From contig JACPPC010000001.1 of the NCBI GenBank assembly GCA_016191225.1, positions 248,001-312,000 of the forward strand: a stretch of DNA of 64,000 nucleotides, written 5' to 3'. This document shows, piece by piece, positions 3,037-29,954 of this stretch. Position 1 is the stretch's first letter. The number at the start of each line of letters is the position of its first letter. This stretch comes from Gemmatimonadota bacterium (GTDB lineage: Bacteria; Gemmatimonadota; Gemmatimonadetes; Gemmatimonadales; Gemmatimonadaceae). The position numbers and the translations under genes are program-made. The notes under the pieces are model-generated. The model worked only from the letters and a program-made list of their open reading frames with translations, was not told where the DNA came from and did not search any database.

Positions 3037-6000
3037 ATGATCGACCGCGTGCTCGGGTTCTCGCTCAGGAGTCGCCTGCTCATCGCGCTGCTCGCGCTCG
3101 GGGTCATTGGCGGCGGCGCATTCGCGCTCGGCCAGCTGCCGATCGACGCGTTCCCCGATGTCTCGCCCACCCTCGTCCAGGTCGTGACCGAGGCGCCGGG
3201 GTTGGCGCCGGAAGAGGTCGAGAAGCTCATCACCTACCCGATCGAAGTCTCGATGAACGGGATGCCGGGCGTCGAGCAGGTGAAGTCGATCTCGGCGTTC
3301 GGCATTTCGCAGGTCTCCGTCTACTTCCGTGACGATGTCAACATCTACTTCGCCCGGCAGCTGTCGCTCGAGAAGCTGCAGGACGCGAAGAGCCAGATCC
3401 CTCCGGGACTCGGGGAGCCGAAGCTCGGGCCGATCACGACCGGGCTCGGCCAGGTCTACCAGTACGTCGTGACGGGCGCCGGCCGGGATCCGACCGAGCT
3501 CCGCACGCTGCAGGACTGGCTCGTGAAGTACAACCTCCGGACCGTTCCCGGGGTGACGCAAGTGCTCTCGTTCGGCGGAGACGTCAAGCAGTACCAGGTG
3601 CAGGTCGACCCCCGCGCGTTGCTGCAGTACCGCGTCACCCTGACGCAGGTTCGCGACGCCGTTCGCGCGAACAATCGCAACGTCGGTGGGGGCTTCATCG
3701 AGCGCGGCCCGGAGGAGTACCTGATTCGCGGGATCGGGCTCGCCGAGACGCTGGGCGACCTCGAGAGCGTCATCGTCGCCGAGCGCAACGGGACGCCGGT
3801 GTATGTGCGCAACGTGGCCGTCGTGGCGATCGGCCCGGAAGTGCGCCGCGGCGCGGTCACGATGAATGGCGGCGGCGAAGCCGTGACCGGCATCGTGCTC
3901 AAGCGCATCTACGAGAACACGTCGCAAGTCATCGCGGCGGTCAAGGACAAGGTGGGCGACATCAATCGCTCGCTCCCGCCGGGCGTGCGCGTGCGCCCGT
4001 TCTACGACCAGGCGGAGCTCGTCGACCGCGCGGTCGGGACCGTCCGGGACGCGCTCATCGAGGGCGCGGTGCTGATCGTCGTGATCCTGTTCCTGTTCCT
4101 CGGCAATGTGCGCAGCGCGCTCATCGTCACGACGATGCTGCCGCTCTCGCTGTGCCTCGCCGTCGCGCTCATGGCGTTCTCGGGGTTCAGCGCGAACCTC
4201 ATGAGCCTGGGTGGCCTCGCCATCGGGATCGGCATGATGGTGGACGGGGGGGTCGTGATGGTCGAGAACGTCTACCGCCAGCTCTCGGAGGCGCGGCACG
4301 CGCACGCGGGCGCGGTGTCCGCCGAGGCGAAGCGGCAGATGATTCTCGCGTCCGCGACGGAGGTCGGCCGCCCGATCGCCTTCGCGATCGCGATCATCAT
4401 CATCGTCTTCCTGCCGTTGTTCACGCTCCAGGGCGTCGAGGGCAAGATGTTTCGGCCGATGGCGTTCGCCATCTCCTTCGCCATGGTCGGCTCGCTCGTC
4501 TTCTCGCTGACCGTGATCCCGGTGCTCTGCTCGTTCTTCCTCCGGGGCGGCCGCGAGGCGGACACCTGGATCATGCGGCAGGTCAAGCGGCCATACCTGC
4601 CCGCCCTGCAGTGGTCCCTGCGCAACCGCAAGGCGATGCTCGGTGGCGCGGTCGCCGCCCTCGGCATCAGCCTCGCCCTGCTGCCGTTTCTCGGCACGGA
4701 GTTCGTGCCGATCCTCGAGGAGGGGTCGATCCTGTACCGCGCGACCCTCGCCCCGTCGGCCGGCCTCAGCGAGGGAATCCGCACCGCGACCGCCCTGGAG
4801 ACAATGGCGAAGGCGTTTCCCGAGGTCGACGAGGTCATCTCGAAGATCGGGCGCGCCGAGGCGGGCGGCGACCCGGAGCCGGTGAACAACATCGAAGCCA
4901 TCGTCACCCTCAAGGCCGGGCAATTTCGCAAGACCGGTCGCGACAAGGCGGCGCTGGTCGAGGCGATGGACAAGGCGTTCGCGCAGTACCCCGGCGTGGC
5001 GTTCAACTTCTCCCAGCCGATCGCCAATCGCGTCGATGAGCTGCTGAGCGGCGTCAAGGCGCAGCTGGCGATTCAGCTGTTCGGCGACGACCTCGACCGG
5101 CTGGTGGAGTCCGCCCGGCAGATCCAGCGCGTCGTCGCCGCCGTGCCGGGCGCGGTGGATGTCCAGGTCGAGCAGGTGACTGGGCAGCCGCAACTGCAGG
5201 TCCGGATCGACCGCGCCGCGATCGCGCGCTACGCGCTCAACGTGGAGCACGTGCAGGAGGCCATCGAACTGGCCGTCGGGGGCGAGCGGGCCGGCCAGGT
5301 CTTCGAGGGCGTCCGCCGGTTCGACATCACCGTGCGCCTGCAGGACGTCCACCGCAACAACGTCGATGCCATTGGCCGGTTGCTGATTCCGACGCCCGAT
5401 GGGCGGGCGCGCGTGCGGCTGTCGCAACTCGCCCGGATTCGCGTCGTGACGGGGCCGAAGCAGATCAGTCACAACGACGGCCAGCGACGGATCGTGATCC
5501 AGCTCAACGTCCGCGGCCGAGACATGGGCGGGTTCGTGGCCGAGGCGCAGGAGCGACTCGCTGCGACCGTTCGCCTGCCCACCGGCTACTTCCTCAAGTG
5601 GGGTGGGCAGTTCGCGAACCAGCAGCGCGCGATGCGGCGGCTCGCCGTGATCGTGCCACTCACGGTCGGCCTCATCTACCTGCTGCTCTTTTCCAGCTTC
5701 GGGTCGCTCACGCAGGCCGGGCTGATCATCCTCAACGTGCCGTTCGCGATGATCGGCGGCATCCTTGGCCTCGCCCTCTCGCGGCAGTATCTCTCGGTGC
5801 CCGCGTCGGTGGGCTTCATCGCACTGTTTGGCGTCGCCGTCCTGAACGGGGTCGTCCTCGTGAGTTGCATCAACGCGCTGCGCCGCGACGGCATGGATCT
5901 CCGTGAGGCGGTGTATCGCGGCACCGTGCTCCGGTTGCGTCCGGTGCTCATGACGGCGACCGTCGCGATCCTCGGGCTCCTCCCCCTGCTGTTCTCCACC

Positions 6001-19555: not shown

Positions 19556-19762
19556 CTACGCGGTCGCGGGCAGGTCGTCGTCGTCGGGCGCGCAGGTCGC
19601 GGCGGCCATCAGCTCCATCACGGGCGAGAAATCGACGTTGAGGGCATCCGGCGCCCGCTCCGTCTTCTCGCTGGTGAAGAAGTGGCCGATCACCGCGTCC
19701 GCCACCCCGCCAATCGGCAGGGCAGCCAGCACGATCGCCGGGACAACAATTGGGTCAGGCAT
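19556..19762 (-). CDS. small orphan protein with one hydrophobic segment, 68 aa
   Basis: The minus-strand ATG at 19762 is preceded by a very strong ribosome-binding site (GGGAGGAGG, 8 bases upstream), unusual in this window. The product has a hydrophobic N-terminal stretch (~5-27, VVPAIVLAALPIGGVADAVI), a charged middle (TSEKTERAPD) and an acidic end (CAPDDDDLP). No family is recognised. It is divergent from the response regulator at 19972, with 209 bases between them. It could be a small membrane-associated protein. The ribosome-binding site is the main support that it is translated. Confidence 0.6.
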   Translation of the reverse strand: MPDPIVVPAIVLAALPIGGVADAVIGHFFTSEKTERAPDALNVDFSPVMELMAAATCAPDDDDLPATA

Positions 19763-21885: not shown

Positions 21886-23244
21886 CTAGACGGGCAAAGC
21901 GGATCCTTCGCTTCGCTCAGGATGACCGTCGGACGGCTCAGGATGACTGCGTGACTCGACCGCCGCGTTAGCCAGATAACGCCTGAGCGAGAGCAGCCAC
22001 CCCACCGACACGGCGCAGAACGCCGCTCCCGCGATGGCCGCGGCCGCCGGGATCGCCCCCATCCCGCCGAGCACGAGCGCCACAACGCCAAGGACAGTGT
22101 GGCGGGCGGCCTCGGGAACGATCGCCCAGTCGCGCCCCTCGAGCAGGATGGCGAGGTTGCTGAGCGTCAGCACCACATAGAAGGCGAGGGCCGCCAGCTG
22201 GTCCATGGGGAGGGAGCCCTGGACCTTGAGGACGCCGAGGCTGGCGAAGAGGGCGGCGAGGAACTGGGCAAAGGCGTACCAGAGCACCGGCGGCGCCACC
22301 TCGGGGTCGTACTGACGGGCGGTGGCGCGCGTGACCTCGGGGGCGACGATGCTCGGGCCGACGTCGGCGGGGCGCCAGCTGGGGCTGGCCCAGATCACCC
22401 GCCACTTGTCGCGCCAGCGGCGCGTGGCCTTGAAGGTGCGCCAGAGCTCCACGAACACGTGGACGTTGGCCCAGACGGGATTCCAGCTGGCCAGCGGCTT
22501 GGTGATGCCGTAGACCGGCTCCTCCTCCTCGGGAACCCAGGTGCCGAACCACTTGTCCCAGACAATGAAGACGCCGGCGTAGTTCTTGTCCTGGTACTTG
22601 GGGTTCACGCCGTGGTGCACCCGGTGGTGCGAGGGGGTGTTCCAGACGGCTTCGATCGGCGCCGGGAGCCGGCCCACGGCGCGGGTGTGGATCCAGAACT
22701 GGTAGACAAGGTTGATGGCGTGGCAGGAGATGAAGACCTCGGCGGGCACCCCGGCGAAGGCCAGCGGCAGGTAGAAGACCCAGGTGAAGAGGCCGTGGAG
22801 GGAGCTCTGCCGGAGGGCGACGGCGAGGTTGTACTCCTCGCTCGAGTGGTGGACCACGTGCCCGGCCCAGAGGATGTGGACCTCGTGCGAGAGGCGGTGC
22901 AGCCAGTAGTAGGCGAAGTCCACGAGCACGAAGGCCACGGTCCATCCCAGCAGGTTGGCGAGGTGGACCTGGAGGCCGCCGGCGAAGGTCACGGGAGGGC
23001 CGCTTGGCCAGGCCGGGATGGCGCTGCTCAAGCGCTGGACGGAGGCGTGCTGGACGATGAGGTAGTAGGCGCCCAGCTGGATGAGCTTGGTGAAGATCCC
23101 GGCCAGCTGGCTGGTGATGCCGAGGCTCAGGTCGGAGATCGAGTCATTGAGCCGGAAGAGGCGCCGGTGCCCGAGGCGGGCGACGACGAGCTCGATCCCC
23201 ATGAGGAGGAAGAAGAAGGGGATCGAGTAGGTGATGATGCCCAT
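21886..23244 (-). CDS. sterol desaturase/fatty-acid hydroxylase family protein
   Basis: A 452-aa integral-membrane di-iron oxygenase. The eight-His pattern is present: HRLSH (~116), HVVHH (~129-133) and HHRVHH (~201-206). Multiple membrane helices lie at both ends, and an extra C-terminal membrane part follows the catalytic core, as in alkylglycerol-monooxygenase-like members. The reaction is probably hydroxylation or desaturation of a lipid; the substrate is unknown. The last ~20 residues (PEPSDGHPERSEGSA) are translated from a dispersed DNA repeat, so the original C-terminus was likely shorter or has been replaced. It starts 23 bases after the PilT-like gene on the same strand. Confidence 0.9.
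   Translation of the reverse strand: MGIITYSIPFFFLLMGIELVVARLGHRRLFRLNDSISDLSLGITSQLAGIFTKLIQLGAYYLIVQHASVQRLSSAIPAWPSGPPVTFAGGLQVHLANLLGWTVAFVLVDFAYYWLHRLSHEVHILWAGHVVHHSSEEYNLAVALRQSSLHGLFTWVFYLPLAFAGVPAEVFISCHAINLVYQFWIHTRAVGRLPAPIEAVWNTPSHHRVHHGVNPKYQDKNYAGVFIVWDKWFGTWVPEEEEPVYGITKPLASWNPVWANVHVFVELWRTFKATRRWRDKWRVIWASPSWRPADVGPSIVAPEVTRATARQYDPEVAPPVLWYAFAQFLAALFASLGVLKVQGSLPMDQLAALAFYVVLTLSNLAILLEGRDWAIVPEAARHTVLGVVALVLGGMGAIPAAAAIAGAAFCAVSVGWLLSLRRYLANAAVESRSHPEPSDGHPERSEGSALPV
21901..21926. repeat. dispersed repeat, TCGCTTCGCTCAGG family, copy 1
   Basis: Contains CCTTCGCTTCGCTCAGGATG, shared with the copies at 55749 and 60292. It encodes the C-terminal HPERSEGSA of the desaturase. 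A second partial unit (CGGACGGCTCAGGATGAC) follows at 21930-21947. Confidence 0.65.
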
Positions 23245-23267: not shown

Positions 23268-24416
23268 CTACGCGTGCTGCTGCCCCGGCCGGGTGGTCAC
23301 CCCGCCCCGGAGCTGCGTCCGCACATCCGCCGGGTTCACGCTCAGGCTGATGGCCACGTCGGGGCCGATCTTGCCGTCCAGCGCCAGCTCGGCCAACGAC
23401 TGGTCGAAGGTGTGCGTCCCCACGTCGGCGCGGTGCCTGGCGAGCTGGGCCCGGATGTCGAGGAAGGCGCCGGCGTCCATGAGCAATTGCTCGAACTCGG
23501 GGGAGGCCAGGTACAGCTCCGTGGCGAGCACGCGGCCGCCGTCGTTGGCGGCCACGAGCTTGTGGGCGAGGATCCCGCGCACCGTCTTGGCGATGCGGAG
23601 GCGGATGGCCGACTGGTTCTGCGTCGGCACGCCGGAGACGAGGTGCCGCAGGGTGTCGGTGACGTCGTGGGCGTCGACCTTGGCGATCACGAGGCTCCCA
23701 GCCTCGGCGGCCCGCAGGAGCGACTCGAGCTGGTGGGGGTCCACCCGGTCGAGGGCGATGATGTCGGTGCGGTGCTCGATCGCGGCGTCGAGGGCGCTCT
23801 CGACCGAGTCGGTGTCGATCCCCAGCTCGCGCTGGGTGATGGTGCACTTGCGGTCCTTGAGCAGGAACCGGGTCTTGGTCTCGATGATGACGATGTGGCG
23901 GCGGCGCTCCGAGGTCTCGTTGAGGTGCGAGAGCAGCGCGGCGAGGGTGGTGGAGCGGCCGGAGCCCTGGGTGCCGCTGAGGAGCAGGAGCCCCGAGGGA
24001 TAGTCGAGGGCGCGGGCCAGTTCGGCCGGGATGTGCAGGGACTCGAGGGAGGGCACGACGTGCGGGATGACCCGCAGCAGGACCATGAATGTCGATCGCT
24101 GCTTCACGACGCTCGCGCGGAACCGCCCGACGCTCGGCACGCTCCAGGTGAGGGTCAGGTCGCGCAGCCGGTCGTGCGGGGGAACATCGCCGGGGGCCGC
24201 CTCGCGGAGCCGCTCGACGAAGTGGATCATGTCGTCGGCCGAGAAGATGTGGGCCCCGATGCCGACGAGCTCGCCGTCCACGCGGCTGCGCATGATGTCG
24301 CCGGCGCGCACATGCACGTCGGTGCCCCCGCGCCGGACCGCCTCGAGCAGGAGGGCATCGAGGGTCGAGCGCGCCTCGTGTGGCGAGAGCACGGGACGTG
24401 GAATCTGGTCAGCCAT
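23268..24416 (-). CDS. PilT-like ATPase with altered catalytic motifs
   Basis: A 382-aa member of the PilT/GspE type II/IV secretion ATPase family, with a PilT-like N-terminal domain (RRGGTDVHVRAGDIMRSRVD) and a RecA-like core. The Walker A reads GTQGSGRSTT, with Arg in place of the invariant Lys (~152). The Walker B region reads DIIALDRVDPHQLE instead of PDVILVGEMRD, and the His box STLHT is replaced by IAKVDAHD. ITQRELGIDTDS is kept. The protein may bind nucleotide poorly and act as a regulatory or non-hydrolysing partner; that is inference. No other pilus genes are nearby. ATG 24416 is preferred over 24503 because it starts at the domain boundary. Confidence 0.82.
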   Translation of the reverse strand: MADQIPRPVLSPHEARSTLDALLLEAVRRGGTDVHVRAGDIMRSRVDGELVGIGAHIFSADDMIHFVERLREAAPGDVPPHDRLRDLTLTWSVPSVGRFRASVVKQRSTFMVLLRVIPHVVPSLESLHIPAELARALDYPSGLLLLSGTQGSGRSTTLAALLSHLNETSERRRHIVIIETKTRFLLKDRKCTITQRELGIDTDSVESALDAAIEHRTDIIALDRVDPHQLESLLRAAEAGSLVIAKVDAHDVTDTLRHLVSGVPTQNQSAIRLRIAKTVRGILAHKLVAANDGGRVLATELYLASPEFEQLLMDAGAFLDIRAQLARHRADVGTHTFDQSLAELALDGKIGPDVAISLSVNPADVRTQLRGGVTTRPGQQHA

Positions 24417-24626
24417 GAGCTGCGTTGCCCCGGTTGTTCGATGCGTGCCAGAGTGAGTATCGGGTGCTGTGACGGAAACCCGGCGTACTTCGTCCCTTCT
24501 CACGACATTCCCCGATACGCCTGTAAAGTACTAGACGGCTACGGGGATGCGACGTAACCAGCCAAGCCGCTGTCGCAACACGTGATAGCGACCCCCGGCG
24601 GGCCAACTCCGGTCGGGCCCCTCCCC

Positions 24627-25145
24627 ATGCCCCCCTCCACGCGATTCCGCCGCACGTCCCGCCGAGTGATCGACCTGGCCGTGTTCGCGGCCGGCCTGCT
24701 GCTGGCGTGGAGGCTGGTGCGGCACTCCCCGATCGTGCTGGGCACGTCGGTGGCCGGGATGGGGCTCACGCTGTGGTGGTTCCGCCGGCGCGAGCTGCGC
24801 GCCCTGGGCTACCTGCGGGGACGCTTCCAGTGGCGCGACCTGCTGCTGGCCGGGCTGCTGGTGGGAGGGCTCTGGCTGGGGCTCTACCTGGTCTTCAGCC
24901 TGGGCGACGTGGGCGTGTCGTCGGGAACGGGGACGCGGATTCCGATCGGGCGCGACGCGGCGGCCCTCTCCATGGGCGACATGCTGATGGCGGGACTCGC
25001 GGCGACGGTCTGCACCATGGCGCTGGCGTTCCCCTTCCGGTCGACCACGAGGTCGCGGCGCGACGTGCGGGAGACCGCACTCGTGGGAGGACCGCCGGGT
25101 GACGCGAGCAAGAGTACTCCCGCGAAGGGGAGTTCCGCGCAGTAG
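24627..25145 (+). CDS. small membrane protein of unknown function
   Basis: A 172-aa product with three or four predicted membrane segments: VIDLAVFAAGLLLAWRL (~14-30), PIVLGTSVAGMGLTLWWF (~37-54), DLLLAGLLVGGLWLGLYL (~74-92), and a further one around MLMAGLAATVCTMALAF (~125-141). The tail is basic and Ser-rich. No family is recognised. The start is 210 bases from the divergently transcribed PilT-like gene. An in-frame start at 24582 is less likely. Confidence 0.68.
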   Translation: MPPSTRFRRTSRRVIDLAVFAAGLLLAWRLVRHSPIVLGTSVAGMGLTLWWFRRRELRALGYLRGRFQWRDLLLAGLLVGGLWLGLYLVFSLGDVGVSSGTGTRIPIGRDAAALSMGDMLMAGLAATVCTMALAFPFRSTTRSRRDVRETALVGGPPGDASKSTPAKGSSAQ

Positions 25146-25473: not shown

Positions 25474-27984
25474 TCACGAGCCCGACAACAGCTTGGACAG
25501 TCTCCGCCGCCAGGTCGTGGGCGCGGCGCCGTTGCCCGCCTCCCCACCGTAGCGCTCGCTGTACTCCCCCCGGTAGCCGTAGTAGTCGTACCCCGTGCCG
25601 CCGCGGGTGCGGTAGTCGCGCTGGAAGATGAAGTCGTTGAGCACGAAGCCGAGCACCGGCGCGCGCACGGCCCGCATCTGGTCCACCGCGAACTGCAGGG
25701 CGGCACGCTCGGTGTGGTTGGCCCGACCCACGATCACCACGCCGGCGGCCTTGGCCCCCAGCAGCGCGGCGTCAGTCACGAGGTTGAGCGGCGGCGAGTC
25801 GAAGATCACGAAATCGTACCAGCGCTCGAATTCCTGGATCAGCTGGTGGATGCGGTCACCCCCCAGCAGCTCGGCGGGGTTGGGCGGGAAGACGCCCGCC
25901 GGGATGACGTCGAGCTGGTGGTCCTCGCCGAGTTCCACGCGCTTGATGCAGTCGGCCGCGCGCGTGCCCCCCACGAGCAGGTTGCTGAGCCCCGGCTGCT
26001 GGTCGATCTCGAACACCCTGTGCACGGTGCCGCGCCGCATGTCGGCGTCGATCAGCAGCACCTTGAGGCGCTGGTAGGCAAGGACGATGGCGAGGTTGCT
26101 GGCCGTGGTCGTCTTGCCGTCGCGCGGGGAGGGCGAGGTGAAGACGACGGTCTTGGGGCCGGGGTCGGGGCGGGCGAAGGTCAGGTTGGTGCGCAGCGTG
26201 CGATAGGCCTCGACGATCGGGTTGCCGGGGTCGGCGGCCGAGATGATGCGCTCGCTCCGGAACGCGCCGCTGGCCCGGGTGGCGTCGGGACTGATGCCGG
26301 GGATCATCTGTGACGCCACGTACCGGAAGTCGGTCGTGCTGGCGAGGCGGATGTGCGGGATGAGGCCGAGGGCGCTCGCGCCGACGATCTGCTGCATGTC
26401 CTCGTTGATGTGGACCGTGCTGTCGAGCATCTCGCGCAGGAAGGCGAGGGCGAGGCCGAGGGCGAGGCCGACGAAGATCGACAGCTTGAGGTAGCGTCCC
26501 TTGTCGGGCTTGATCGGCGCGCCGCCGAACTCGGCGGGGTCGAGGATGCGGAGCCGCGCGTCGTCCACCGAGAGTGCGATCTCGGCTTCCTTGAGGCGGG
26601 CCTGGACCATGGTGTAGAGCTGCTCGATGACCTTGTTCTGCCGCTCGAGGCGGGCGAGGTCGAGCTGCGCCACCGGCTGCGCCGCGGTCTCGCGTCCGCT
26701 CTCGGAGAGGGTGGAGTCGATGATCGCGACCTGGCGCCCGAGGTCGAGCAGGTGTCGCCGCGTCAGGTAGTCGATCTGGGTCTCGATCTCGCGGATGCGC
26801 CCGGTGATCTGCTGCACCTCGGGGACGTCGCGGGTGCGGCGCACGAGCAGGGTGGCCCGCTGGTTCTCCTGGTCGCTCAGCGCCGACAGGCGCGGCTGGA
26901 TCGTGGGAAGGAGCCGCGGGAAGGCCATCAGGCGCCAGTAGGCCGAGGTGCTGTCGGGGCCGCGCGTCTTCGCGGCGGCCTGGACCTCGGCGAGCACCTG
27001 CGTGAGGGACTGCAGTTCCACCTGCCGGTCCACGCGGTCCTGCTGGAGCTTTCCGACGTCGCGGTCCGGCCGGGCGGCCGCGGTGGAGCGGGCGAGGAGC
27101 CCCGGGTTGCGGCCGCGGAAGGCGACGAGGCGGTCCTCGGTCTGGGCCAGTTGCTGGCCGAGGGTGTCGAGCTGCTGCCGCAGGAAGTGCACGGTGCTGC
27201 GGGCCTCGGTCTTGTTGATCTCGCGGCGCAGGTAGATGAAGCGGGTGAGGAGGGCGTTGGGGACGTCGCGAACGAGGGTCGGGTCGGCGCTCTGGTAGGT
27301 GACGGCGACGGTGTTGACGTCGCGCGAAGGGCGGCGGACGTCGAGGGTGCCGCGGAGCTCGGCGACGGCGTCGGCGAACGGGATCACGTCGAGAATGACG
27401 TCGGGATAGTCGCGGGCGGAGTCGGAGAGCACCACCCGCAGGTCGCCGAGGGCGGCGGGCTGCCCGGCCGTGAGCTTGGCGACCGGCTTTCCCGACTCGC
27501 GATCGGTGACGATCACGGTGTCGCGCTTCCCGCGCGTCATGCGGTACTGCGCGGGGCGGGCGTCGCGCGGGGCGATGACGGCCGTGAACATGCGGGCGCG
27601 CGGCACCGGGCGTGGCGGCGAGAGGATGGCGCCCCCGCGCAGCACCTCGAACGGCCGGGTGACCCGCACGTGCAGGGCCAGGGAGTCGGCGGTGGCCTCG
27701 GCCATGGTGCGCGAGCCGAGGAGCTCGATTTCGGCGGCGACGTCGACCTTGTCGAGCCGGTTCGGGTCGATGAGCGAGGGAACGGGGGCCTGCTTCTTCT
27801 CGATGCTGACCGTGGCCGTGCCCTCGTACACCGGGGTCACGAGCGACGCCAGCACCCACGAGAGGAGCGGGGTGAAGAGGAGGGCGGCGAGGATGAGGAA
27901 GCGGTTCCGGGCGATGAGGCTCCAGAACTGCCGGTTGGACGCCTCCCCGCTGCGCGCCGCGGCCGGGGCCTGCTCGGTGGCCAT
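25474..27984 (-). CDS. Wzc-like exopolysaccharide co-polymerase and tyrosine autokinase
   Basis: An 836-aa BY-kinase fused to a Wzz-type chain-length domain. TM1 is at ~30-50. A long periplasmic part with coiled-coil stretches (~190-450) follows, then TM2 at ~498-518. The cytoplasmic kinase has Walker A (SPRDGKTTT, ~617-625), A' (VLLIDADMRR) and B (VIFDSPP). The C-terminal tail has a cluster of six Tyr (YDYYGYRGEYSERY, from ~800), the usual autophosphorylation sites. It controls chain length and export of the polymer made by the genes at 28.7-55.8 kb. It lies 3 bases after the Wza-like gene on the same strand. Confidence 0.95.
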   Translation of the reverse strand: MATEQAPAAARSGEASNRQFWSLIARNRFLILAALLFTPLLSWVLASLVTPVYEGTATVSIEKKQAPVPSLIDPNRLDKVDVAAEIELLGSRTMAEATADSLALHVRVTRPFEVLRGGAILSPPRPVPRARMFTAVIAPRDARPAQYRMTRGKRDTVIVTDRESGKPVAKLTAGQPAALGDLRVVLSDSARDYPDVILDVIPFADAVAELRGTLDVRRPSRDVNTVAVTYQSADPTLVRDVPNALLTRFIYLRREINKTEARSTVHFLRQQLDTLGQQLAQTEDRLVAFRGRNPGLLARSTAAARPDRDVGKLQQDRVDRQVELQSLTQVLAEVQAAAKTRGPDSTSAYWRLMAFPRLLPTIQPRLSALSDQENQRATLLVRRTRDVPEVQQITGRIREIETQIDYLTRRHLLDLGRQVAIIDSTLSESGRETAAQPVAQLDLARLERQNKVIEQLYTMVQARLKEAEIALSVDDARLRILDPAEFGGAPIKPDKGRYLKLSIFVGLALGLALAFLREMLDSTVHINEDMQQIVGASALGLIPHIRLASTTDFRYVASQMIPGISPDATRASGAFRSERIISAADPGNPIVEAYRTLRTNLTFARPDPGPKTVVFTSPSPRDGKTTTASNLAIVLAYQRLKVLLIDADMRRGTVHRVFEIDQQPGLSNLLVGGTRAADCIKRVELGEDHQLDVIPAGVFPPNPAELLGGDRIHQLIQEFERWYDFVIFDSPPLNLVTDAALLGAKAAGVVIVGRANHTERAALQFAVDQMRAVRAPVLGFVLNDFIFQRDYRTRGGTGYDYYGYRGEYSERYGGEAGNGAAPTTWRRRLSKLLSGS

Positions 27985-27987
27985 CGG

Positions 27988-28647
27988 CTACCTCGAGGTG
28001 ATCAGCACGATCTGCACGATCGAGAGGGTACTGAAGGTCACGAACTGGAGGAGGCCGGCGGGGGTCCAGCCGTTGCGCGCCGCCCAGCCCCCCTTTGGAA
28101 TGCGCAACTCGTCGCCGGCCTTGGTGTCGAGCTGGCCGATGAAGGCGCTGGTCGGCACCTGACCGTACACGAGGGTGCTGTCGCGCCACAGTTCGAGCGG
28201 GCCCTGGGCCGCCGCCTCGGCGGTGCGGCCCCCGGCGAGGGCCACGGCGTCGCCCACGGTCATGGTCGCGTCCATGGGATAGAGCCCGGGGGCGCGCGCC
28301 GCCCCCTGCACCGCGATCCGCCGCAGGAAGGTGACCTGCACCGACGGGTCCTTGACGCTCGAGGCGAGGTCGGTCTCGAGCTGCCTTTGCAGGGCGTCGG
28401 AGGCGATGCCGAGCACCACGCGGGCGCCAAGGAGGGGGAGCGAGACCTTGCCGTACTCGTCCACGATGAAGTCCCCCGAGAGCTCGGGCTCCCGCCAGAC
28501 GCGAATGCGCACCACGTCGCCGGGGCGCAGGCCGAAGCTCCGCGGCAGGGGGGCGGCGGCGAGCGCGGGCCCGCCGGGCGGGCTGGCGCAGGCGCCCAGC
28601 GTCAGGGCGCCGACCAGCACGAGGAAAGAGAGTCGCAGTCGGGACAT
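27988..28647 (-). CDS. Wza-like polysaccharide export lipoprotein
   Basis: A 219-aa outer-membrane export protein. ATG 28647 gives a signal peptide ending in lipobox TLGAC (Cys ~19). The polysaccharide-export domain follows (LRPGDVVRIRVWREPELSGD, VDEYGKVSLPLLG), then one SLBB-like domain (GLYPMDATMTVGDAVALAGG). The hydrophobic end (VTFSTLSIVQIVLITSR) probably crosses the outer membrane, as in Wza, although that segment sits at the extreme C-terminus here. It is shorter than E. coli Wza and has fewer SLBB repeats. It is probably co-transcribed with the wzc-like gene. Confidence 0.93.
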   Translation of the reverse strand: MSRLRLSFLVLVGALTLGACASPPGGPALAAAPLPRSFGLRPGDVVRIRVWREPELSGDFIVDEYGKVSLPLLGARVVLGIASDALQRQLETDLASSVKDPSVQVTFLRRIAVQGAARAPGLYPMDATMTVGDAVALAGGRTAEAAAQGPLELWRDSTLVYGQVPTSAFIGQLDTKAGDELRIPKGGWAARNGWTPAGLLQFVTFSTLSIVQIVLITSR

Positions 28648-28730
28648 GAGGGTGGCCAAGGGCGTCCGGCACGAAACGTCGCCGGTGACACAACCATTGA
28701 ACGATTCGTCTGCCAGTAGGCAACTCCTGA

Positions 28731-29954
28731 GTGTTCGCCTCCGGGGCCGAATGCCCCGGGGCGCGTCGCTTGGCGCTCGCCGTGCGCCCACGCCCCCTCC
28801 GCACCCCACTCGTGCCCGCCCTCCTCCGCCGGATCGTGACCCGCCTTGCCGGACTGCTCACGCGCCGGCAGGTGGTGTTCCTGCCGCGAGTGGCCGGCGC
28901 CGAGGCGCGACTGCTCGACCTGCGCGCCCCGTACCGCGTGGATGCGACGTCGGTGGCGATCGCGGTGACCGACGGGCGTGTCGGGGAAATGACGATCGCG
29001 GTGCGCGGGTACTCGGGGCACTTTCCGGGGCGGGCGGTGTGGCGGCCGTGGGCGTTCGCGCACGCGGGCCCGTGCACCTACACCCTCGACCTCGCCACGG
29101 GGACGCTGTGGCGGGGCGTGGCGATGGTGGCACAGGCAGGCAAGGCCATTACGTTCCCGTCGCGGCGATTCGCGATCGACTGGGGGCTCGAGACGCCGTC
29201 GGGGGAGGTGGCGGAGCGGCAGACGGGGCACTACCGGCCGGGGGGCGACGAGCCCGTGGACGCGGCGTACTTCGGCGGTGGCAACTACGTGGACCACGAG
29301 GCCGAGAGCGCGGGGGAGCACCCGGCGGTGGTGCGGCTGCTCAAGTCGCATGGAGCCGGCCCGCGGGTGCTCGAGATCGGCTGCGCCACGGGGGGACTCG
29401 TGGCGGCGCTGCGCGCGGCGGGCTTCGACGCCGTGGGGGCCGACTTCTCGGAGTGGGCGGTCGGCCAGGCGACCGCACGCCTGGGAGGTGCGCACGCCTG
29501 GCAGTGGAACGTGGAGCGCGACCCGGCGCCGGCGGCGCTCGCTGGGCGCGGCCCATTCGATGCGCTCGTGCTGTGGGTGACGCTCGAGCACTTTCGCGCG
29601 CCGTGGGCGGCGCTGGCGGCGCTCGCCCCGCTTTGCGCGCCGGGAGCGAGGCTGTTCATCAAGACGACGAATGCCGACTCGCTCACGCACCAGCTGTTCG
29701 GCGGGGACTGGGAGGGCTTCTACGACTGGACGCACCATGGGGTGTCGGAGGTGGGGGTGCGCTCGCTGCGCGAGCGGCTCCCCGCGCTCGGCTGGCGCGT
29801 GCGCGCGTGCGCGACCGAGCTGGTGTGGGACGGGAGCGCCGACCCGCTGCACGCGACGGTGCGCGAGTGGCACACGCACGACGCCCGGTTTCGCCGGCTG
29901 CTCGTCGAGCGCGAGCTGGGCGACCTGGTGACCGTCGTGGCGGAGCGCGGGTGA
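28731..29954 (+). CDS. class I SAM-dependent methyltransferase
   Basis: About 407 aa. An N-terminal ~170-residue domain of unknown type precedes a class I methyltransferase fold (motif I VLEIGCATGGL at ~213; VLWVTLEHF acting as motif IV), with a C-terminal helical part. It probably methylates a sugar or sugar-linked intermediate of the polymer. This is the first gene of the rightward polysaccharide operon, divergent from wza with an 83-base spacer that must hold both promoters. The start is uncertain: GTG 28731 or GTG 28812. The end overlaps the next gene by 4 bases. Confidence 0.82.
   Translation: MFASGAECPGARRLALAVRPRPLRTPLVPALLRRIVTRLAGLLTRRQVVFLPRVAGAEARLLDLRAPYRVDATSVAIAVTDGRVGEMTIAVRGYSGHFPGRAVWRPWAFAHAGPCTYTLDLATGTLWRGVAMVAQAGKAITFPSRRFAIDWGLETPSGEVAERQTGHYRPGGDEPVDAAYFGGGNYVDHEAESAGEHPAVVRLLKSHGAGPRVLEIGCATGGLVAALRAAGFDAVGADFSEWAVGQATARLGGAHAWQWNVERDPAPAALAGRGPFDALVLWVTLEHFRAPWAALAALAPLCAPGARLFIKTTNADSLTHQLFGGDWEGFYDWTHHGVSEVGVRSLRERLPALGWRVRACATELVWDGSADPLHATVREWHTHDARFRRLLVERELGDLVTVVAERG

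Follow-up and report, generated by a model that had tools for sequence, protein, structure and literature searches.

The window analysed here, that is, the whole stretch of 64,000 nucleotides from a Gemmatimonadota bacterium (contig JACPPC010000001.1, positions 248,001 to 312,000), carries on its reverse strand a PilT-family gene with degenerate catalytic motifs, referred to below as R-PilT. The gene belongs to a Wza/Wzc exopolysaccharide (EPS) locus, a setting that the preliminary description of this DNA had missed. The features of the locus and the basis on which each was assigned are as follows:

21886..23244 (-): fatty acid hydroxylase-family protein, which also adjoins R-PilT in L040, the locus of the same-genus orthologue (gene call, Pfam)
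23268..24416 (-): R-PilT, 382 aa, a PilT-family protein whose catalytic motifs are degenerate (ORF, profile, PDB and fold matches)
23664..23705 (-): degenerate HIS box, residues 238-251, EAGSLVIAKVDAHD for ETGH...TLHT (alignment)
23745..23750 (-): degenerate Walker B, residues 223-224, DR for GE, the next Arg absent (alignment)
23949..23975 (-): degenerate Walker A, residues 148-156, GTQGSGRST, Arg154 for Lys (alignment)
24582..25145 (+): cl42, a small membrane protein in the EPS locus, probably related to cl8 of the other R-PilT EPS loci (hhalign)
25474..27984 (-): Wzc-like polysaccharide co-polymerase with a kinase-type ATPase domain (Wzz, GNVR, AAA_31)
27988..28809 (-): Wza-like polysaccharide export protein (Poly_export, SLBB)
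28812..29954 (+): methyltransferase, opening a divergent run beyond Wza (gene call, Pfam)

An alternative GTG start of R-PilT lies further upstream, at 24503. In the translated reading frame, GSGRST occupies residues 151-156, LDRVDPHQLE stands where the GE.RD stretch is expected, and AKVDAHD stands where the TLHT stretch is expected. The AIRNLIRE motif at the C-terminus of PilT is absent from the window protein, which reads PEFEQLLMD; most R-PilT sequences have a VRD/VRE-type motif at this place, and their nearest relatives likewise depart from AIRNLIRE. The NCBIfam PilT/PilU model TIGR01420 matches residues 19-363 with 216 bits (E 8.3e-64), which falls short of its curated cutoff of 319.1, while Pfam T2SSE is matched at 52.5 bits, exceeding the cutoff of 24.9, and solved PilT chains in the PDB are found by sequence search with E down to 2.9e-52. 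The AlphaFold2 model of the protein has a mean pLDDT of 79.3 and a pTM of 0.64, with pLDDT below 50 in residues 1-15, 181-201 and 374-382, and the top Foldseek matches of this model are the Thermus and Geobacter PilT (E 2.3e-34, TM 0.75). In the predicted structure the PilT fold is therefore kept, and the earlier claim that the rest of the fold is retained is borne out by the model and its PilT matches.

R-PilT is carried by 31 of the 179 genomes of the window's family (identity 39-73%, E ≤4.7e-77 by sequence search); the matches listed below this set have an identity of at most 37%, and the step in E value is small there (4.7e-77 to 1.5e-73). In a profile search of 370 genomes of the phylum that are at least 85% complete, 23 match at E ≤4.1e-164, all of them in the window's family, and the next-best match is at 5.8e-140, which leaves a wide gap after the R-PilT set. 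Genomes less than 85% complete took part only in the family searches for R-PilT, the sugar transferase, PilB and the spacer 14-mer described below. No relatives of R-PilT were found by a contig scan with the single protein, and among the best 80 loci listed by an alignment-based contig scan there was one R-PilT (L080, apparently a contig of G034), the others being different PilT-type loci.

Motifs were counted over 31 distinct R-PilT sequences rather than one per genome, after identical sequences and matches spanning fewer than 300 model positions had been removed; G027 contributes two sequences, and the copy of G028, which carries GSGR, is absent from the kept rows. The 134 "other" PilT-like rows used for comparison come from profile matches on fetched loci (127 on named loci, many of them Pseudomonadota) and do not form a census; L088 is counted among them, yet it is labelled T in the tree. 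The Walker A Lys occurs in none of the 31 R-PilT, all of which have Arg, in 27 of the 28 nearest relatives and in 134 of the 134 others. The corresponding counts are 0/31, 24/28 and 134/134 for the Walker B Arg, 0/31, 23/28 and 133/134 for the HIS-box His, 0/31, 23/28 and 132/134 for the ETGH His, and 0/31, 1/28 (mostly Asn) and 132/134 for the ASP-box Asp. The change of the Walker A Lys to Arg noticed in the preliminary description is thus confirmed by the alignment of orthologues that had been set beforehand as its check, and orthologues with canonical motifs, which would have marked this copy as simply decaying, did not occur. The loss of Walker B and the HIS box, also claimed there, holds in the window; across the clade, the loss of the Walker B Glu does not, this position being Glu in 21 sequences, D in 5, A in 2, R in 2 and S in 1, and the change of GE to DR being confined to the window and its same-genus orthologue.

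Of the 31 sequences, 11 have Ala or Gly instead of Ser directly after the Walker A Lys position, the second ASP-box Glu is retained in 24, and QRE and RFR are invariant in all. At the former active site basic residues have appeared, with Arg at the ETGH His position in 29 of 31 (Ser in the window's genus) and Lys or Arg at the TLHT Thr position in 30 of 31.

In a tree of 86 rows with a midpoint root, the 31 R-PilT rows form a single clade (support 100/100) with a long stem branch of 1.2, and this clade groups with the trpS-linked PilT of the phylum to the exclusion of the other rows (support 100/99); the direction of change is read from the motifs. Since the trpS-linked group of 28 rows has a support of only 91/74, R-PilT may be sister to this group or may come from within it. 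The trpS-linked copies are the nearest relatives of R-PilT and, like it, stand apart from the other rows, but they differ from it in mostly keeping the Walker A Lys and the HIS-box His, and in their location between trpS and dapA/purA instead of in an EPS locus. This linkage was seen in the copies whose neighbours were called, a subset of the 28, and the genes were named from Pfam matches in L067 to tRNA-synt_1b, DHDPS and Adenylsucc_synt. G000, the window's own genome (a 3.04 Mb assembly), has nine T2SSE matches, eight of them above the cutoff. Among its copies, the canonical PilT adjoining PilB (L005/L001) has GSGKST, GEMRD and TLHT, and the PilT in the trpS-MgtC-PilT-dapA-purA setting (L060) keeps the Lys, with a HIS box reading SMDAA. 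In the three trpS-linked copies of the window's genus (L060, L064 and L210) the HIS-box His is Asp in 3/3 with the Walker A Lys kept, and the Walker B Glu is Asp in 2/3. The trpS-linked PilT of another Gemmatimonadota bin (L085, BJHH01000001.1) has GSGR and TLPT, that is, a change of Lys to Arg outside the R-PilT clade.

Dependence of R-PilT on a trpS-linked PilT is unsupported: of three carriers examined, G125 has such a copy, and no copy of this type is among the T2SSE matches of G036 (100% complete) and G030. That R-PilT is an orthologue of PilU was rejected on the tree, in which the PilU-type rows (labelled from their motif and a PilT neighbour) and the PilB-adjoining PilT of G000 are placed elsewhere.

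The surroundings of R-PilT were read from genes called with an in-house codon-usage script, which performed poorly on L087, L195 and L199; for G027 and G028, adjacency was taken from search coordinates. In the window and in L040, Wza, Wzc and R-PilT share a strand, with cl42 between them on the opposite strand. In the other genera, the usual order is a DNA glycosylase, an epimerase, a CpsB/CapC phosphatase and then R-PilT, which is convergent with these genes and divergent from a sugar transferase, Wza, Wzc, the small membrane protein cl8 and a Wzy/ligase-type protein. The comparison of cl42 with cl8 by hhalign gave a probability of 91.7 and an E value of 7.6e-7, scores that can be inflated for membrane proteins, and no Pfam match was obtained for cl42. 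Small membrane proteins of this kind, having no Pfam match, accompany these EPS loci (window 24582-25145, L050:14945-15589), and a very small ORF lies near the locus in both R-PilT carriers of the window's genus (window 19556-19732, L040:10325-10483). In at least four loci (L043, L045, L046 and L055) flagellin, FliW, CheY-like and CheZ-type genes, identified in L045, stand on the other flank, and therefore non-pilus motility genes, too, border on this neighbourhood.

In 28 of 31 genomes (counted by eye), R-PilT shares its contig with the EPS sugar transferase or with Wzc, and in the remaining carriers, G006, G038 and G123, R-PilT is at the contig end or at most 300 bases from it. The transferase is matched at E 1e-60 in 58 of the 179 genomes; a close match (E ≤2.2e-155 and identity of at least 53%, with the next match at 2.7e-97, a cutoff set after the list had been seen) occurs in 30, of which 29 are R-PilT carriers. 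Accordingly, 29 genomes have both genes, 2 have R-PilT alone, 1 has the transferase alone and 147 have neither (Fisher p 6e-30, ignoring relatedness), and the numbers with both and with neither are 12 and 6 in genus g7, 9 and 2 in g29, and 5 and 12 in g31. In G000 and G094, Wza and Wzc are present and the sugar transferase is absent. In G005, a genome that is 77% complete, the transferase is accompanied by Wza, Wzc and the neighbouring TPR gene (64% identical), but no R-PilT lies between them, and tblastn found no R-PilT remnant at this site (L200, about 4420-5145, from the TPR gene to the transferase); EPS genes can therefore exist without R-PilT. Near-identical R-PilT/transferase junctions occur on two contigs of G027 (C141 and C280), and may be either a real duplication or a strain mixture (contamination 6).

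Outside the window's genus, the spacer between R-PilT and the divergent sugar transferase is conserved. When aligned in 8 loci, it has one strictly conserved stretch, the rest being poorly alignable. The 14-mer TTTCGTCCAGTRTA (for example L045:8600-8613) is found in this spacer in 10 of the 179 genomes, all of them R-PilT carriers of genera g29 and g22, and G123 has it twice, on two contig ends carrying R-PilT and the transferase; the reversed control gave 0 occurrences in the 179 genomes. Within the 550 bases preceding R-PilT, the dyad CTGG-N11-CCAGTGT is present in 11 of 31 genomes, compared with a shuffled mean of 0.002 genomes under a null that ignores relatedness. Either the exact dyad or the 14-mer is upstream of R-PilT in 20 of 31; for two of the 31, hardly any upstream sequence is available. 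Both are absent in exact form from G000, G094, G001, G030, G031, G036, G139, G140 and G146. In the window, the 14-mer has 0 matches with up to 2 mismatches, and the dyad has 3 one-mismatch matches against 1.3 expected, one of them roughly 1 kb beyond the 3′ end of R-PilT and none in the spacer upstream of it. The dyad looks like a shared operator or promoter of the R-PilT/EPS loci outside the window's genus.

With regard to pilus motors, PilB-family matches at E 1e-60 occur in 176 of the 179 family genomes (136 above the curated cutoff), and 7 of 14 control genomes also give matches to this search, though beneath the cutoff, so that co-occurrence of PilB with R-PilT is uninformative about the partnership with another PilT or PilB that the preliminary description put forward as a possibility. 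Among the 439 genes called on 34 R-PilT stretches there is one other PilT/PilB-type gene, and physical linkage of R-PilT to pilus motors is therefore rare. This gene, in G123 (L193:2974-5760), encodes a 928-aa MshEN-T2SSE-receiver-GAF protein about 7 kb from R-PilT.

Compared with known systems, R-PilT shares with PilT (TIGR01420; PDB 5fl3, 6ojx) its length, domain order, predicted fold and the QRE and RFR residues, and its identity to the solved PilT/PilU chains in the Foldseek list is 25-31%. It differs in the clade-wide loss of the Walker A Lys, the Walker B Arg, the HIS-box Thr and His and the ASP-box Asp, in its score below the curated cutoff of the family, and in its EPS-locus setting. 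It has been reported that V. cholerae carrying the natural PilT variant R206S, a change adjoining Walker B, is hyperpiliated (PMC6762196), and that P. aeruginosa PilT E204A and H229A lose twitching (PMC6858323); from these effects it may be expected that the motif losses of R-PilT abolish motor function, and the protein has probably lost its ATPase activity. PilU, the PilT-dependent accessory retraction ATPase, is like R-PilT a further PilT-type copy beside the canonical PilT, but it is reported to require intact Walker motifs (PMC6762196), which R-PilT does not have. In the open-licence papers searched, neither a PilT pseudo-ATPase or degenerate-Walker PilT nor biochemical or genetic work on R-PilT was found.

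Pairwise dN/dS values within genera (NG86) bear on whether such a protein is still in use. For R-PilT they are 0.030-0.144 in genus g29 (36 pairs, 9 sequences), 0.049 in g31 (one pair) and 0.077-0.090 in g7 (three pairs), and for the trpS-linked PilT of g7 they are 0.024-0.077 (six pairs); that is to say, outside the window's genus R-PilT pairs are under strong purifying selection, near the level of canonical PilT. Simple decay of a redundant PilT copy could draw on the long stem branch and on the window R-PilT, which against its same-genus orthologue gives 0.345. The trpS-linked PilT of the window's genus is likewise fast (0.238-0.406), and therefore the faster rate there touches both PilT copies. 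With open frames in the clade, the fixed Arg and purifying selection in other genera, decay is very improbable and was rejected, and the retained, non-motor role proposed in the preliminary description is well supported. It is also quite unlikely that the site has been altered so that the Arg and the new basic residues hold some other anionic ligand, be it a different nucleotide, a sugar nucleotide or a cyclic dinucleotide: the basic residues are conserved at the Walker A Lys, ETGH His and TLHT Thr positions and the Walker B Glu is mostly kept, but the ETGH His is Ser in the window's genus, and the Ser next to the Walker A Lys position is replaced in 11 of 31. Modulation of retraction, in which mixed or stacked rings with the active PilT would lower or tune retraction and the EPS linkage would reflect co-regulation of sessile functions, is unlikely as well. 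PilT and PilU, described as separate homohexamers, may form a complex, and PilU is dependent on PilT (PMC6821130, PMC6762196); G036 has, as well as R-PilT, a PilT next to a PilB that shares 82% identity with the PilB-adjoining PilT of G000. Against this, the subunit contacts of Geobacter PilT are reported to be made by T221, H230 and D161 (PMC6858323), whose equivalents, when mapped onto the alignment, are missing in 31 of 31 R-PilT, and the joint loss or gain with the EPS transferase within three genera would be hard to explain.

The strongest rival is an EPS export scaffold with no pilus link, in which an R-PilT ring would dock under Wzc or the sugar transferase and guide assembly non-catalytically; this is possible, though doubtful. 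It would suit the linkage of R-PilT to EPS genes, with a pilus-type ATPase nearby in one genome only, and has a precedent in the BY pseudokinase EcpK of M. xanthus, proposed as a non-catalytic guide of EpsV assembly cycles (PMC12004946). EcpK is, as R-PilT probably is, a dead enzyme fold in an EPS pathway, but it belongs to the BY-kinase fold family and its reported partner is the PCP EpsV (PMC12004946). The scaffold is made less attractive by the kinase-type ATPase domain that the window's Wzc has of its own, and by the one genome (G005) that keeps the locus without R-PilT. In addition, PilT relatives otherwise act on pilus platforms. The present data do not separate such a scaffold from pilus-to-EPS signalling.

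The reading preferred here, held tentatively, is that R-PilT is a non-hydrolysing PilT paralogue which regulates EPS synthesis or export, most likely by relaying the state of the pilus. R-PilT would have arisen once, probably by duplication of a PilT resembling the trpS-linked copy of the phylum, and would then have joined the Wza/Wzc locus, retaining the PilT fold while losing the residues for ATP hydrolysis. It would act as a non-hydrolysing ring or subunit that controls EPS synthesis or export, and most likely would bind either a component of the type IV pilus or a further hexamer of the PilT family, through which the state of the pilus could be relayed to the EPS machine. Because the ATP-using parts are lost, selection persists and the setting is one of EPS genes, R-PilT looks like a motor turned EPS regulator or scaffold; the linkage suggests the EPS role, and oligomer formation is presumed. 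Against this reading, some residual nucleotide binding may persist, and the Walker B Glu is kept in most of the clade.

A precedent for regulation comes from M. xanthus PilB, whose Walker A mutant K327A is reported to have no ATPase activity, to be dominant and to turn EPS on in a pilin mutant, an effect that the Walker B mutant is described as lacking; nucleotide-free PilB was proposed as the signalling state, and for the corresponding Walker A mutant from Thermus the Kd for MANT-ATP is 1.23 μM versus 0.17 μM (PMC5544727). A later review repeats PilB-EPS signalling and cautions that more biochemistry is needed (PMC11656802). Like R-PilT, this PilB is a member of the pilus ATPase family tied to EPS, but it is described as an active motor for extension that carries a c-di-GMP-type domain at its N-terminus, its dead form having been made by mutation (PMC5544727). 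The EPS-regulator reading is thus favoured by the motif loss, the single clade, the low dN/dS, the EPS linkage and co-occurrence, the spacer dyad and 14-mer, the K327A phenotype and the MshEN-T2SSE PilB-like ATPase near R-PilT in G123. Against it stand the rarity of nearby PilT/PilB-type genes and a PilB family too widespread to discriminate, the G005 locus, the absence of the sugar transferase and the spacer dyad from the window's genus, the transcription of R-PilT opposite to the EPS genes outside that genus, and a precedent that is PilB rather than PilT, with Lys changed to Ala rather than to Arg. A bolder form of the EPS-regulator reading, and a rather speculative one, is a dedicated signalling pseudo-ATPase, that is, a pilus-to-slime switch whose ring would be held nucleotide-free or would bind a new anionic ligand through the conserved basic residues.

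In summary, R-PilT is a conserved, EPS-linked and probably catalytically dead branch of the PilT family, and no new kind of machine. By analogy, it looks like a natural, fixed counterpart, on the PilT branch, of the M. xanthus PilB Walker A mutant, and if the signalling pseudo-ATPase were true, it would be the natural fixed version of that EPS-activating mutant. In the literature found, signalling from a pilus motor ATPase to EPS rests on one Myxococcus PilB study. The R-PilT clade offers a natural test of whether motor ATPases signal or scaffold without hydrolysis, and through it the PilT family would join the pseudo-enzymes that take part in EPS pathways.
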